Assembly (NCBI GenBank): GCA_015069425.1
Contig: SVIP01000006.1
Coordinates: forward strand, 1-64,000
Length of the DNA: 64,000 nt
Direction of reading: 5' to 3'
DNA from: Clostridiales bacterium
GTDB lineage: Bacteria; Bacillota; Clostridia; Christensenellales; Borkfalkiaceae
In this document: positions 24,328 through 27,212 of the stretch, piece after piece
How positions within the stretch are numbered: the stretch's first letter is position 1
Layout of the letters: each line of letters opens with the position of its first letter
Notes under the pieces: generated by a model
What the model was told of the DNA's origin: nothing
The model's database searches: none
Seen by the model: only the letters and a program-made list of their open reading frames with translations
Position numbers and translations under genes: made by a program

Positions 24328-24373
24328 TACTAAACGAAACAAAAACTCAAAAAGAAAGAAAAAAAGACCGCCA

Positions 24374-24409
24374 AGTTAGTCGCTCTTCCCATAGGGAATA
24401 GCGACAACT
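24374..24409. repeat. Boundary hairpin before the hairpin array
   Basis: AGTT-(A)-GTCGCT-C-TTCCC pairs with GGGAA-T-AGCGAC-AACT around ATA, a stem of about 15 bp. It lies one end of the array and differs from the array hairpins in length and in lacking the 7-nt linker. Confidence 0.65.
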
Positions 24410-24585
24410 AAATAAATCCTTACGGATTTGTTATATTTGCTTACGCAAGTTATATTGCCTTACGGCAGTGATATTTGCCTAACGGCAAGTTAAGGATTTA
24501 TTTAATATAACTTTGACTGTAAGTCAAAATATAACTTTTAGACTTGCTCTAAAAATATAACTGTTTGCTATGCAAACAATATCAC
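24410..24585. repeat. Array of seven mini-hairpins joined by inverted 7-nt linkers
   Basis: Seven short perfect hairpins (starts about 24414, 24437, 24456, 24475, 24512, 24536, 24562) have different stem sequences. They are joined by linkers GTTATAT, GTTATAT and GTGATAT on the left half, and ATATAAC, ATATAAC, ATATAAC and ATATCAC on the right half, which are the reverse-complement form. The first four hairpins have TTAC or TAAC loops. An outer 13-bp inverted repeat (24410-24422 with 24491-24503) encloses them. The array ends exactly where the -35 of the four-helix gene begins. It is not a CRISPR: units are 12-19 nt hairpins, not spacers. Confidence 0.8.
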
Positions 24586-24614
24586 TTTACTAAAAACTTG
24601 ATTTATGCTATAAT
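24586..24614 (+). promoter_or_regulatory. Promoter of the four-helix-bundle gene
   Basis: TTTACT, 17 bases and a perfect TATAAT end 6 bases before the ATG at 24621. The predicted start of transcription coincides with the start codon, so the mRNA would be leaderless. The -35 box abuts the last linker of the hairpin array. Confidence 0.6.
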
Positions 24615-24620
24615 TAACTT

Positions 24621-24974
24621 ATGAGTGAAAGCATTTTAAGAGAAAAAGCAAAAGAGTTTGCTAAAAACATTGTTTTTATTACAAGAGAAATTAAGTCTAA
24701 CAATAAAGAAAGCGTTTTAACTAATCAACTTTTACGTTCGGGAACAAGCATTGGTGCAAATATCCACGAAGCACAATACGCACAAGGAACAGCTGACTTT
24801 ATTTCTAAATTTGAAATAGCGCTGAAAGAATGTTTTGAAAGTGAATATTGGCTAGAACTATTATTTGAAACAGGCTATTTAGAAGAAAATCAATATAAAA
24901 AACTTAATAATGACTGTGGTGTTATTCGAAAAATGCTAATTTCTTCGTGCAAAACATTAAAAGAGAAAAAATAA
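24621..24974 (+). CDS. Four-helix-bundle protein of the 23S rRNA IVS / bAvd-like family
   Basis: The 117-aa protein matches the family by the central LLRSGTSIGANIHEAQYAQ followed by DFISKFEIALKECFESEYWL and by its all-helical content. Members are encoded in 23S rRNA intervening sequences or stand alone, and relatives (bAvd) assist diversity-generating retroelements. The biochemical role of stand-alone members is unknown. Here it is not in an rRNA gene and no reverse transcriptase is visible. It follows a palindromic hairpin array, has no Shine-Dalgarno site, and is closed by a strong terminator, making a self-contained cassette of about 650 bases. Basic and acidic residues are evenly mixed, so RNA binding cannot be judged from charge. 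Confidence 0.85.
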   Translation: MSESILREKAKEFAKNIVFITREIKSNNKESVLTNQLLRSGTSIGANIHEAQYAQGTADFISKFEIALKECFESEYWLELLFETGYLEENQYKKLNNDCGVIRKMLISSCKTLKEKK

Positions 24975-24978
24975 ATGA

Positions 24979-25008
24979 AACTCGACTTTTGGTAAGTCGA
25001 GTTTTCTT
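24979..25008 (+). terminator. Terminator of the four-helix-bundle gene
   Basis: AACTCGACTT pairs perfectly with AAGTCGAGTT (10 bp, loop TTGGT) followed by TTCTTTT on the plus strand, directly after the stop codon. Confidence 0.85.
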
Positions 25009-25027
25009 TTATCTACGCAAAAACTGC

Positions 25028-25056
25028 TTGATAAAATTTTTTATATGTGCTATAAT
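25028..25056 (+). promoter_or_regulatory. Promoter of the structured leader RNA
   Basis: TTGATA, 17 bases and a perfect TATAAT predict a start near 25063, exactly at the 5' arm of the long outer stem of the leader. Confidence 0.75.
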
Positions 25057-25062
25057 AAATAT

Positions 25063-25235
25063 GCCAAACTAACTTAATAAACGCAATTAGTGGTGTAATT
25101 TTCTTTTTTATAAGGATAATTATATCTATTTTTGCCACAATAGTATTATTGAATTTGATAAAATGCAGATTCTACTTGTGCTATTGTGGTTACACCATTT
25201 TGCGTAAAGTTAGTTTGGCGACTATCGGAGTCTGC
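25063..25235 (+). ncRNA. Structured leader RNA, riboswitch-like, unknown class
   Basis: Nested stems on the plus strand are P1 (25063-25075 with 25207-25219, 13 bp), P2 ACGCAA/TTGCGT, P3 TGGTGTAA/TTACACCA and P4 CCACAATAG/CTATTGTGG. The P4 loop holds GCAGATTC (25165-25172), which can pair with GAGTCTGC (25228-25235) just outside P1, forming a pseudoknot. An AT-rich 36-nt bulge separates P3 from P4 on the 5' side. It has its own promoter and is followed by an intrinsic terminator before a lipoprotein gene. I do not recognise it as a known riboswitch. A stand-alone small RNA is also possible. Confidence 0.55.
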
Positions 25236-25241
25236 GTTTTT

Positions 25242-25270
25242 GTGCGTTTACTTCGGTAGGCGCACTTTTT
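25242..25270 (+). terminator. Terminator between the leader RNA and the lipoprotein ORF
   Basis: GTGCGTTTAC pairs with GTAGGCGCAC through a C(TTCG)G tetraloop, then five T residues. It lies 17 bases before the ATG, so expression of the gene requires read-through or antitermination. Confidence 0.8.
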
Positions 25271-25287
25271 GTTTTGTGGAGGGTTTT

Positions 25288-26157
25288 ATGAAAAAGTTTT
25301 TAGTTTCTATTTTATCTATTATATTAGTGCTTAGTTCTTTTAATTTGATTGCTTGTGGAAATAATCCCAATAAATATTTGGGACATAGGCATAACGGGCT
25401 TTATCATGGAGACTTTTGTGAAGAATGTGATACAATTTGTTGGGACAGTGAAGAAGGATACGTTGTTATGGAATTAGAAATTGATTCTAAGCAATATTTC
25501 TTGCTAGAAGTTTATACCAATAATGCTTTTTCTATGTTGAAAAAAAACAAAATTATACATAGTGGCTCCTACAGCTATACTCTTAATGGAAGAATAAAGT
25601 ATGTGTATATTGCGCCTACGATAACTACAATTCCGAGTGAAGCGTTTGATGAGTGCTATAGTTTAGAAACTATTATTTTAAGTGAAGGACTAAAAAAAAT
25701 AGGAGAGTCCGCTTTTTCGCATTGTGAAAATCTTAAAAAAATAGATTTACCTAATAGCATAGAACGTATAGGCGATTATGCCTTTTTCAGAGCGCCAATT
25801 AAAGAAATAGAATTCGGCTCCAACTTAATTGAAATTGGCGGTGCTGCGTTTAGAGAAACAAATCTTACATCCATTTCTATTCCAAATAGCGTAGAAAAAA
25901 TTGGAGCAGGTGCTTTTTCAAAAACAAATATTAAAAATGCCACTATAGGTAAAAACGTAGCTTACATTGGTGAGGCTGCTTTTCGTGAATGCAATAAAAA
26001 CCTAAAGGTTAAATTTGAGGAAAAAGCAAATTGGTTTGTTAAAAACGACTATTATGAACATATAGACATTGATAAAAAAACAATATCAAACAAGAAAAAG
26101 GCTGGGGATTTGCTTTTAAATAAATATTGTTATTATGAATGGCTTCGTACAATTTAA
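25288..26157 (+). CDS. Lipoprotein with BspA-type leucine-rich repeats (LRR_5)
   Basis: The ATG at 25288 follows GGAGGG and gives 289 aa. The first 24 residues are a lipoprotein signal (MKKFLVSILSIILVLSSFNL, lipobox LIAC). A Cys/His-rich patch follows. Residues about 95-250 form five or six BspA-like repeats, seen as IPSEAFDECYSLETI, IGESAFSHCENLKKI, IGDYAFFRAPIKEI, IGGAAFRETNLTSI and IGAGAFSKTNIKNA. Such repeats mediate surface binding in gut and oral bacteria. A longer ORF start at 25186 is rejected because it runs through the structured RNA and terminator. It likely belongs to the same accessory island as the upstream cassette. Confidence 0.85.
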   Translation: MKKFLVSILSIILVLSSFNLIACGNNPNKYLGHRHNGLYHGDFCEECDTICWDSEEGYVVMELEIDSKQYFLLEVYTNNAFSMLKKNKIIHSGSYSYTLNGRIKYVYIAPTITTIPSEAFDECYSLETIILSEGLKKIGESAFSHCENLKKIDLPNSIERIGDYAFFRAPIKEIEFGSNLIEIGGAAFRETNLTSISIPNSVEKIGAGAFSKTNIKNATIGKNVAYIGEAAFRECNKNLKVKFEEKANWFVKNDYYEHIDIDKKTISNKKKAGDLLLNKYCYYEWLRTI

Positions 26158-26172
26158 TGATATTAAGTGTAG

Positions 26173-26252
26173 CACACTATACTTTGCAAGCAAAGTTGTG
26201 TGTTTTTGCAAAGCAAAAAGAAAAAGGATAGCAAAAATTTTGCTATCCTTTT
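26173..26252. terminator. Two stem-loops between the lipoprotein gene and tsf
   Basis: The first (26173-26207) pairs ACTTTGC/GCAAAGT and CACAC/GTGTG and ends in TTTTT on plus. The second (26222-26252) is a perfect AAAAGGATAGCAAAA/TTTTGCTATCCTTTT stem that can act in both directions, serving the convergent tsf and lipoprotein genes. Confidence 0.75.
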
Positions 26253-26330
26253 ATGCTATCTAAAAAATCCCTAAGGGAAACGCCCTTAATTTAGCGGTCT
26301 TTATTATGCTTTTTATAGGTTTTAAGTGGT

Positions 26331-27212
26331 TTACTTTTTCATTTGCGCTTCTACTTCAGCGGCAAAGTCATCGTTTCTCTTTTCTAAACCTTCACCCATT
26401 TCAAATCTGGTGAAACGTTTAACGGTAAGAGTTTTACCCATTTTATCAGAATAACTCTTAACGAGCTTTTCAATGGTGAGTGATGGGTCTTTAACGAATG
26501 CTTGGTTCATAAGACAGAATTCGTCGTAGTATTTTTTAACTCTACCTTCAACCATTCTATCAACGATAGCAGCAGGTTTACCTTCGTTTAAAGCTTGTGC
26601 TTTTAAGATTTCCTTTTCGTGCTCTAAAATTTCAGCAGGAACTTCGCTTGCAACTAAATATAAAGGCTTAGATGCTGCGATTTGAAGAGCAACGTCGTGA
26701 GCGAGTTCTTTAGCAGAATCACAAGTACAACCTTCGATTTCAACTAAAACGCCAACCTTACCACCCATGTGGATATAACTTTCAACGATACCGTTTTCAG
26801 CAGTGTATTTTGCAAAACGACGGATAGCGATTTTTTCACCGATTTTTGCGGTTGCAGCAATCGTTTCGTCATTTTTAACTGCTACTAATTCGTCGATATC
26901 TTTAACGTCGTTTGCTATTACGTAGTCAACAACGCTGTTAACGAATTCCTTATATTGGTCGCCCTTTGCAACGAAGTCTGTTTCACAGTTTACTTCTACA
27001 AGTGCGCCTACGTTTCCGCTAATTTTAGCAGCAACGATACCTTCAGCAGCGATTCTTGATGCTTTTTTAGCAGCGGTTGCTATACCTTTTTCTCTTAAGA
27101 AGTCAACAGCCTTTTCCATGTCGCCGTTTGTTTCTTTTAATGCTTTTTGGCAATCTGCAACACCTGCGCCCGTCTTTTTACGGAGTTCCATTACGTCTTT
27201 AGATGTAAACAT
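26331..27212 (-). CDS. tsf: Elongation factor Ts
   Basis: EF-Ts is the nucleotide exchange factor for EF-Tu. The 293-aa protein starts [27 protein letters not shown]-like (conserved TGAGxxDCKKAL motif), continues into [23 protein letters not shown] and has two core subdomains. It lies 26 bases after rpsB. Confidence 0.97.

Follow-up and report, generated by a model that had tools for sequence, protein, structure and literature searches.

A hairpin array beside a four-helix-bundle gene as the probable control module of a small mobile element in a tsf terminator

Introduction

Why should seven mini-hairpins, joined by 7-nt linkers that reverse their orientation midway, stand directly before a gene of the S23/IVP four-helix family, a family with solved structures and no known stand-alone function? 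The locus that raises this question lies in a contig of a Clostridiales bacterium (SVIP01000006.1), of which a stretch of 64,000 nt was analysed (hereafter, the window). Our comparisons of this locus with related ones supply a context for the family, that of mobile elements. The four-helix-bundle gene and its protein are referred to as 4HB.

Results

Anatomy of the array

The array (24410-24585) consists of seven hairpins with three GTKATAT linkers followed by four ATATMAC linkers, all of them present as the sequence-only reading of this DNA had described them. Its parts, together with a partial match to the Rfam family Gut-1 and the promoter and gene that follow, are:

24405-24479, plus strand: sub-threshold match to Rfam RF01706 Gut-1 (46.1 bits; gathering threshold 50)
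24414-24488, plus strand: forward half, with h1 (24414-24429), GTTATAT (24430-24436), h2 (24437-24448), GTTATAT (24449-24455), h3 (24456-24467), GTGATAT (24468-24474) and h4 (24475-24488)
24489-24504, plus strand: closing segment; 24491-24504 is the pairing partner of 24409-24422, in competition with h1
24505-24585, plus strand: reverse half, with ATATAAC (24505-24511), h5 (24512-24528), ATATAAC (24529-24535), h6 (24536-24554), ATATAAC (24555-24561), h7 (24562-24578) and ATATCAC (24579-24585)
24586-24614, plus strand: promoter, with -35-like TTTACT (24586-24591), a 17-nt spacer and TATAAT (24609-24614)
24621-24974, plus strand: 4HB gene (PF05635/TIGR02436), 117 aa, identified by profiles and a structure match

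The outer stem, previously given as 13 bp, exists and is a perfect 14 nt (24409-24422/24491-24504); since its 5' arm includes the 5' arm of h1, the outer stem and h1 are mutually exclusive. The array folds with z-scores of -6.5 as RNA and -5.9 as DNA, and 0 of 200 shuffles were as good in either. The features first reported within 24410-24974 are thus real, while that range missed a further long hairpin (24376-24411) and the outlying ends of the element described below.

Promoter and protein

The last linker contacts the -35-like box, as had been noticed from the sequence, and the ATG of the 4HB gene (24621) comes close behind the -10 box. With the start codon so near the -10 box, the array lies ahead of the promoter and is no part of the mRNA; a role for the array as a 5'-UTR regulator was rejected on this ground. 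In the wider set of loci, 52 of 67 have a promoter-like match (score of at least 9 of 12) immediately behind the last linker, against 11.6% of shuffled sequences.

The assignment of the gene to the 23S-IVS/Avd fold is borne out by the profiles (100.1 bits against a cut-off of 33.8, and 110.7 against 24 in a second search) and by structure comparison, in which the AlphaFold2 model (pLDDT 94.9) matches 2rld (TM 0.90), 2gsc (0.84), the Avd structure 4dwl (0.79) and the DGR complex 8ub7 (0.77). The 2rld and 2gsc entries each contain five chains, and the window protein, as a homologue of these PDB pentamers, would be ring-forming. Among 19 4HB proteins from several clades, Q36, R39, E50, D59, K63, K69, E70 and E73 are invariant, charged and polar residues that would seem to exceed the needs of a plain scaffold. 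The window genome (94.7% complete) has a single TIGR02436 gene and a single Gut-1 match, both at this locus.

Arrays and linker types across 4HB genes

Arrays were sought upstream of other 4HB genes with a finder that accepts any 7-nt linker alternating with hairpins and returning as its reverse complement. At least five units were found upstream of 108 of the 184 4HB genes used (six of 190 were dropped, their upstream DNA being too short), compared with 0/184 dinucleotide-shuffled copies and 1/184 gene-body stretches. Arrays of at least five units precede 36 of the 103 4HB genes from a class sample of 245 genomes, and arrays occur at 66 of the 75 genes (among the 184) that were retrieved by similarity to the window protein. 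The co-occurrence of array and four-helix gene that the window had suggested is therefore supported. In the usual layout, a left-end hairpin is followed by three or four units of forward linker and hairpin, then by a closing segment whose sequence complements the region of the first hairpin; reverse linkers with hairpins, the promoter and the gene complete the order.

The conservation of linkers beside variable stems, first remarked on in the window, holds across this array family. On a tree of 181 proteins (leaving out six genes with short upstream DNA and three duplicate proteins), the eight linker types of the 112 array-bearing proteins require seven changes, the fewest possible, whereas the minimum over 200 shuffles was 36. 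All 11 sampled genomes with at least two array-bearing genes contain at least two linker types, which indicates that the linker type follows the gene and not the genome. In 84 of 85 arrays the forward and reverse linkers belong to one class (our own grouping of the table), and in 60 of the 85 they are identical. The agreement between linker and clade is also expected from the joint inheritance of a linked unit; joint inheritance leaves unexplained, nevertheless, that the linkers within one element agree while the intervening stems differ. These patterns make the linker a well-motivated candidate for the recognised element. Gene-less arrays were also compared with the 4HB proteins resident in the same genome, and a match between the two found no support: 6 of 17 genome-type pairs agreed, against 4.6 expected, and one of the six is the array of the window itself, taken from a cut locus.

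Heptad repeats beyond the hairpin arrays

A 7-nt period also appears at relatives that have no hairpin array. Tandem periodicity was tested by lag at 69 loci that lack an array and at 7 on plasmids. Most of these gave no such signal, and all 13 strong tandem periodicities (at least 0.80; seven upstream and six downstream of the gene) were at lag 7 or 14, with none at other lags from 4 to 15; the 115 hairpin-array loci gave no lag signal of at least 0.80. The seven plasmid relatives, chosen from 25 records and coming from Bacteroidota, Spirochaetota, Clostridia, Cyanobacteriota and Chloroflexota, carry repeats before the 4HB gene and, as judged by eye, their reverse complement after it. The commonest 7-mer exceeded all shuffles in five of these seven loci, the exceptions being L315 and L319. 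A 7-nt period thus seems to be a recurring mark of the family, with the hairpins an addition in the window's group. Some 4HB genes of this set sit within operons resembling restriction-modification systems, between HsdS and HsdR in L315 (Monoglobus) and between a helicase and an N-6 DNA methylase in L319 (Chlorohelix).

Forward and reverse linkers might instead simply base-pair between themselves when the nucleic acid is single-stranded, with no protein recognising them. The reverse-complementary classes of the two halves in 84/85 arrays agree with such pairing, as does the return of the repeats in reverse complement behind the gene in distant phyla. Pairing in a nested arrangement would predict pair-specific covariation, and none was found: at linker position 3 (G or T), the reverse linkers R1-R3 correlate among themselves at 0.79-0.88, while the nested forward-reverse pairs give 0.55, 0.74, 0.32 and -0.24, no better than other forward-reverse pairs. 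This result concerns nested pairs and not register-free pairing; taken together, we give linker-linker pairing little credence as the explanation, and continue with recognition of the linkers by the 4HB protein.

A putative element set in the tsf terminator

In the window, the array and gene lie between pyrH and tsf (identified by TIGR00116), and hence not inside a 23S rRNA gene. More precisely, we read them as part of a longer unit that sits between the arms AAAGACCGC and GCGGTCTTT of the tsf terminator:

24359-24372, minus strand: left arm of the tsf terminator (host DNA), AAAAAAAGACCGCC; on the minus strand, the 3' arm with its T run
24376-26292, plus strand: whole putative mobile element, 1,917 bp, with ends set by analogy with 14 split-terminator elements
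24376-24411, plus strand: left-end hairpin, TTAGTCGCT..AGCGACAACTAA; left end common to L068 and L070
24973-25012, plus strand: terminator-like hairpin after the 4HB gene
25288-26157, plus strand: cargo gene for a BspA-type leucine-rich-repeat protein (LRR_5), 289 aa
26221-26252, plus strand: terminator-like hairpin before the right end
26262-26292, plus strand: right end, AAAAAATCCCTAAGGGAAACGCCCTTAATTT, whose TCCCTA is complementary to the apex of the left hairpin
26293-26302, minus strand: right arm of the tsf terminator (host DNA), AGCGGTCTTT

The stop codon of tsf (26331-26333) lies 38 nt beyond the right end of the element. The match between the two arms is 9 nt, which is weak alone, as 22.5% of mismatched pairs reach that length, and the window contains 11 occurrences of the left arm AAAGACCGCC with one mismatch allowed, where 3.5 are expected; what would carry the case for a split terminator here is its location next to tsf and against the conserved ends. 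Among 15 relative loci, the end of tsf was found in 10, and all 10 are without array and have the terminator-like hairpin intact (in L304 the best-scored hairpin is another one and the terminator is visible in the sequence; L150 and L302 give the same sequence). The earlier idea of a cassette of array, gene and terminator therefore stands as regards a mobile unit, with its extent revised to 24376-26292, a cargo gene added and the tsf terminator as its setting. Between the 4HB and LRR genes, 25060-25286 is likely a structured leader: CCAAACTAACTT, close to its beginning, pairs with AAGTTAGTTTGG, and a hairpin and a T run then precede the start of the LRR gene. This segment had no supported match to an Rfam family.

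Related elements, their sites and their cargo

Two pairs of related elements recur as near-identical blocks. L073 and L075 are 99.0% identical over 1,337 bp in unrelated places, with no flank similarity found, and L122 and L132 are 99.0% identical over 1,362 bp, the contig of L122 starting at the element. The blocks shared among gene-bearing loci begin together at the left hairpin and stop 0.36-1.1 kb after the gene start, and in the flanks beyond -300 and +1200 only L109 and L128 share DNA over 150 nt.

The two flanks of an element are frequently the arms of an intrinsic terminator. In 15 of 70 loci the left flank has an inverted match of at least 11 nt to the right region, compared with 1.4% of mismatched pairs. 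Twelve of these 15, together with L071 and L075 added by eye (10 and 9 nt), were assigned as 14 split-terminator elements and laid out beside that of the window (676 to 2,197 bp, with right boundaries set by hand), the other 56 of the 70 loci receiving no such assignment. L082, L107 and L138 were rejected as split terminators, the matches in L107 and L138 being to tRNA 3' ends. In 8 of the 14 elements, the genes on both sides end towards the element. The right end carries ATCCCTA in the window's group, and left hairpin and right end are complementary over 8-16 nt in 9 of the 15 laid-out elements (16/600 when shuffled) and over 4-6 nt in the other six, the window included (6 nt). No target-site duplication was seen by eye in these 15.

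The cargo is varied. Seven cargo proteins of other elements include a methyltransferase, a GIY-YIG protein, a NUDIX protein and an S51-peptidase-like fragment; of the remaining three, one had sub-threshold matches only and two had none. No transposase was found in the window cargo or in these seven proteins. Searches for empty sites found neither the L073 flank in the genomes of L074, L075 and L101, nor, in a genus search covering two genomes, an empty site around a G138 array. Overall, the mobility of the element and its target are well supported by sequence comparison.

These observations bear on a simpler explanation, in which the array is an operator only, that is, a multi-site autoregulatory region spread by ordinary recombination and with no mobility system of its own. 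Such a region would account for the contact of the last linker with the -35 box and for the promoter after the array in most loci. It would not account for the many arrays that have no gene, nor for sharp common ends, sites in terminator loops and near-identical blocks in unrelated flanks, and we consider it quite improbable compared with a mobile element that has the array as its control module.

Gut-1 and tRNA-adjacent arrays

The Gut-1 model, put forward as a noncoding RNA known only from human gut sequence (according to the excerpted text of PMC2864571), has matches in 44 of the 245 class genomes (29 above threshold). TIGR02436 is present in 75 of the 245, namely in 37 of the 44 genomes with Gut-1 and 38 of the 201 without (our own tally). 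Among the matches listed, of which at most 18 were scored in any one genome, many gene-less array copies are found per genome. These results suggest that Rfam Gut-1 is part of a mobile element and not an RNA gene. In L023, a frame that we take to resemble an IS200-type transposase comes soon after a Gut-1 array with a shortened reverse half.

A same-strand tRNA 3' end lies within 130 nt to the left of the array in 37 of 101 cases (those of 106 oriented arrays with enough left DNA), against 3.1% of random positions, and the three other arrangements of a tRNA were found at 0 of the 101. By eye, the terminator-like left hairpin is seen again after different tRNAs, which implies that it travels with the element. 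This tRNA-adjacent mode is a second kind of site. Split-terminator arms were rejected for it, as no clear ones emerged among 50 arrays outside L062-L141 (7/50 at 9 nt or more against 6.5%, and 4/50 at 10 nt or more against 2%, two, L195 and L199, being A/T-run arms); direct flank matches of at least 10 nt in the same 50 arrays, whose right ends are undefined, were seen in 4/50 against 3.8%.

Several individual loci of this kind deserve description. In L107 and L138, the tRNA 3' end on the left side of the element reappears reverse-complemented on its right (21 and 13 nt). Tandem elements follow tRNA genes in L178, L010 and L011, with ..CCA closing every right end and the next element beginning at that point (by eye). 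Finally, L320, a fecal phage record (MT835815.1), contains a tRNA-like sequence and an element that looks, by eye, the same as the Ruminococcus bromii element in L119.

DNA or RNA, and the enzymes searched

The stem mismatches carry information on the strand that folds. Inner stems of the reverse half have 25 G.T against 7 A.C mismatches (p = 0.002) and those of the forward half 4 against 9 (p = 0.27). In unit orientation, the totals are 34 against 11 (p = 0.0008), or 30 against 10 with near-copies collapsed (p = 0.002), counts that are small and come from related copies. The loops common in the reverse half are GAA, GCA, AAA and GGA, and the forward half has the complements, such as TTC; GNA loops give very stable DNA mini-hairpins (Yoshizawa 1997, as cited in the available part of PMC6479982). 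Mismatches and loops would both be consistent with hairpins that fold on one strand in the forward half and on the other in the reverse half, a pattern that a single RNA does not account for.

As to enzymes, RVT_1 (PF00078) had no match in the window genome, and it occurs in 10 of the 44 Gut-1 genomes against 94 of the 201 others; a reverse transcriptase was thus rejected as the driver. The Y1 transposase (PF01797, the only transposase profile searched at genome level) was found neither in the window genome nor in G088, which has many arrays, and was rejected in the same way, with 30/44 Gut-1 genomes against 114/201 others (our own tallies in both cases). An old insertion could have used either enzyme despite its absence from the window genome today.

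An element acting at the RNA level, like the 23S IVS, has to be weighed here: heptads and hairpins would act in RNA, the 4HB protein would bind RNA as Avd does, and the element would enter RNA hairpin loops and return via a reverse transcriptase acting in trans. The fold shared with Avd and the DGR complex agrees with this possibility, as do the noncoding RNA proposed for Gut-1 (in the part of PMC2864571 cited above) and the Coxiella rRNA IVS in helix 45, with heptameric repeats before its S23p ORF (as far as described in the excerpts of PMC4990558). The distribution of RVT_1 argues against it, together with the position of the array upstream of the gene's promoter and the stem mismatches pointing to opposite strands, the forward half not being significant by itself. 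We therefore regard an RNA-level element as unlikely, and a DNA element as the better account of the locus.

Discussion

A model for the element

Our preferred reading, to which we assign a probability of about 70%, is that the array, next to the promoter, serves as control module for a small mobile element (24376-26292) whose 4HB protein reads the linkers and which integrates into hairpin loops. As judged from the compared loci, related elements lie in the loops of intrinsic terminators, occur as near-identical copies in unrelated flanks and have conserved ends and varied cargo, and the window element has the same anatomy in the tsf terminator; the protein binding and the chemistry are what we infer.

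In this model, the 4HB protein would recognise the 7-nt linkers, which occur in both orientations. By occupying the last of them it would repress the promoter of its own gene, autoregulation being suggested by the promoter directly following that linker in most loci, and by bridging the array it would build a nucleoprotein complex for mobilisation. The array hairpins would be extruded as single-stranded or cruciform DNA, and integration would take place into a target hairpin loop, through an enzyme from outside or an unrecognised activity of the 4HB protein, the least certain step.

A wider reading, held tentatively and slightly on the doubtful side of even, is that of a new class of bacterial mobile elements in several phyla. 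The ring-forming 4HB protein would itself be the mobility protein, reading 7-nt repeats and directing hairpin-loop integration with no known transposase or reverse transcriptase, and the class would take in rRNA IVSs, Gut-1 and heptanucleotide repeats. In the open-access literature searched, no recognised link of four-helix-bundle genes to hairpin arrays, Gut-1 or terminator insertion was found; subscription papers lay mostly outside that search, which does not establish priority. For the S23/IVP family, 7-nt repeats that vary in sequence with the protein clade would be the likely ligand, and hairpin loops the likely target. The eight linker types and their proteins form a ready specificity panel, and the question of what rRNA intervening sequences are becomes testable.

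Comparison with known systems

The 23S rRNA IVSs with an S23p/IVP ORF in Coxiella and Leptospira have been proposed to be selfish or mobile, and that of Coxiella, with its site in helix 45, has heptameric GACAGAT repeats just before the ORF (both from the excerpts of PMC4990558). To the extent of that description, the 23S IVS and the window element share a PF05635-family protein, insertion at a hairpin and heptameric repeats upstream of the ORF. They differ in the site, here the tsf terminator, and in the hairpins between heptads, the own promoter and the cargo gene of the window element.

With the DGR protein Avd (4dwl, and the complex 8ub7), compared by fold and by reverse transcriptase, the window protein has in common the four-helix fold (TM 0.79 and 0.77), while the window genome lacks a match to the reverse transcriptase profile PF00078. 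The Gut-1 model spans the left half of the window array; it was proposed as a noncoding RNA, whereas its counterpart here, at 46.1 bits against the threshold of 50, is a DNA module beside a four-helix gene.

REP/BIME repeats with RAYT, and IS200/IS605 elements, comprise interspersed hairpin repeats with gene-less copies. The arrays resemble them in both respects and differ from them in that no Y1 transposase was found in the window genome or in G088. Group IIC introns target terminators and need a reverse transcriptase; they insert after the terminator stem, whereas here the insertion splits the stem. Lastly, the cyanobacterial STRRs are heptanucleotide tandem repeats, and 7-nt tandem repeats flank 4HB genes in plasmids of Nostoc, Planktothrix and Euhalothece. 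Likened by their description, STRRs would correspond to the 7-nt tandem repeats at 4HB genes and, unlike the window array, have no hairpins between the repeats; the element would offer a source for heptanucleotide repeats.
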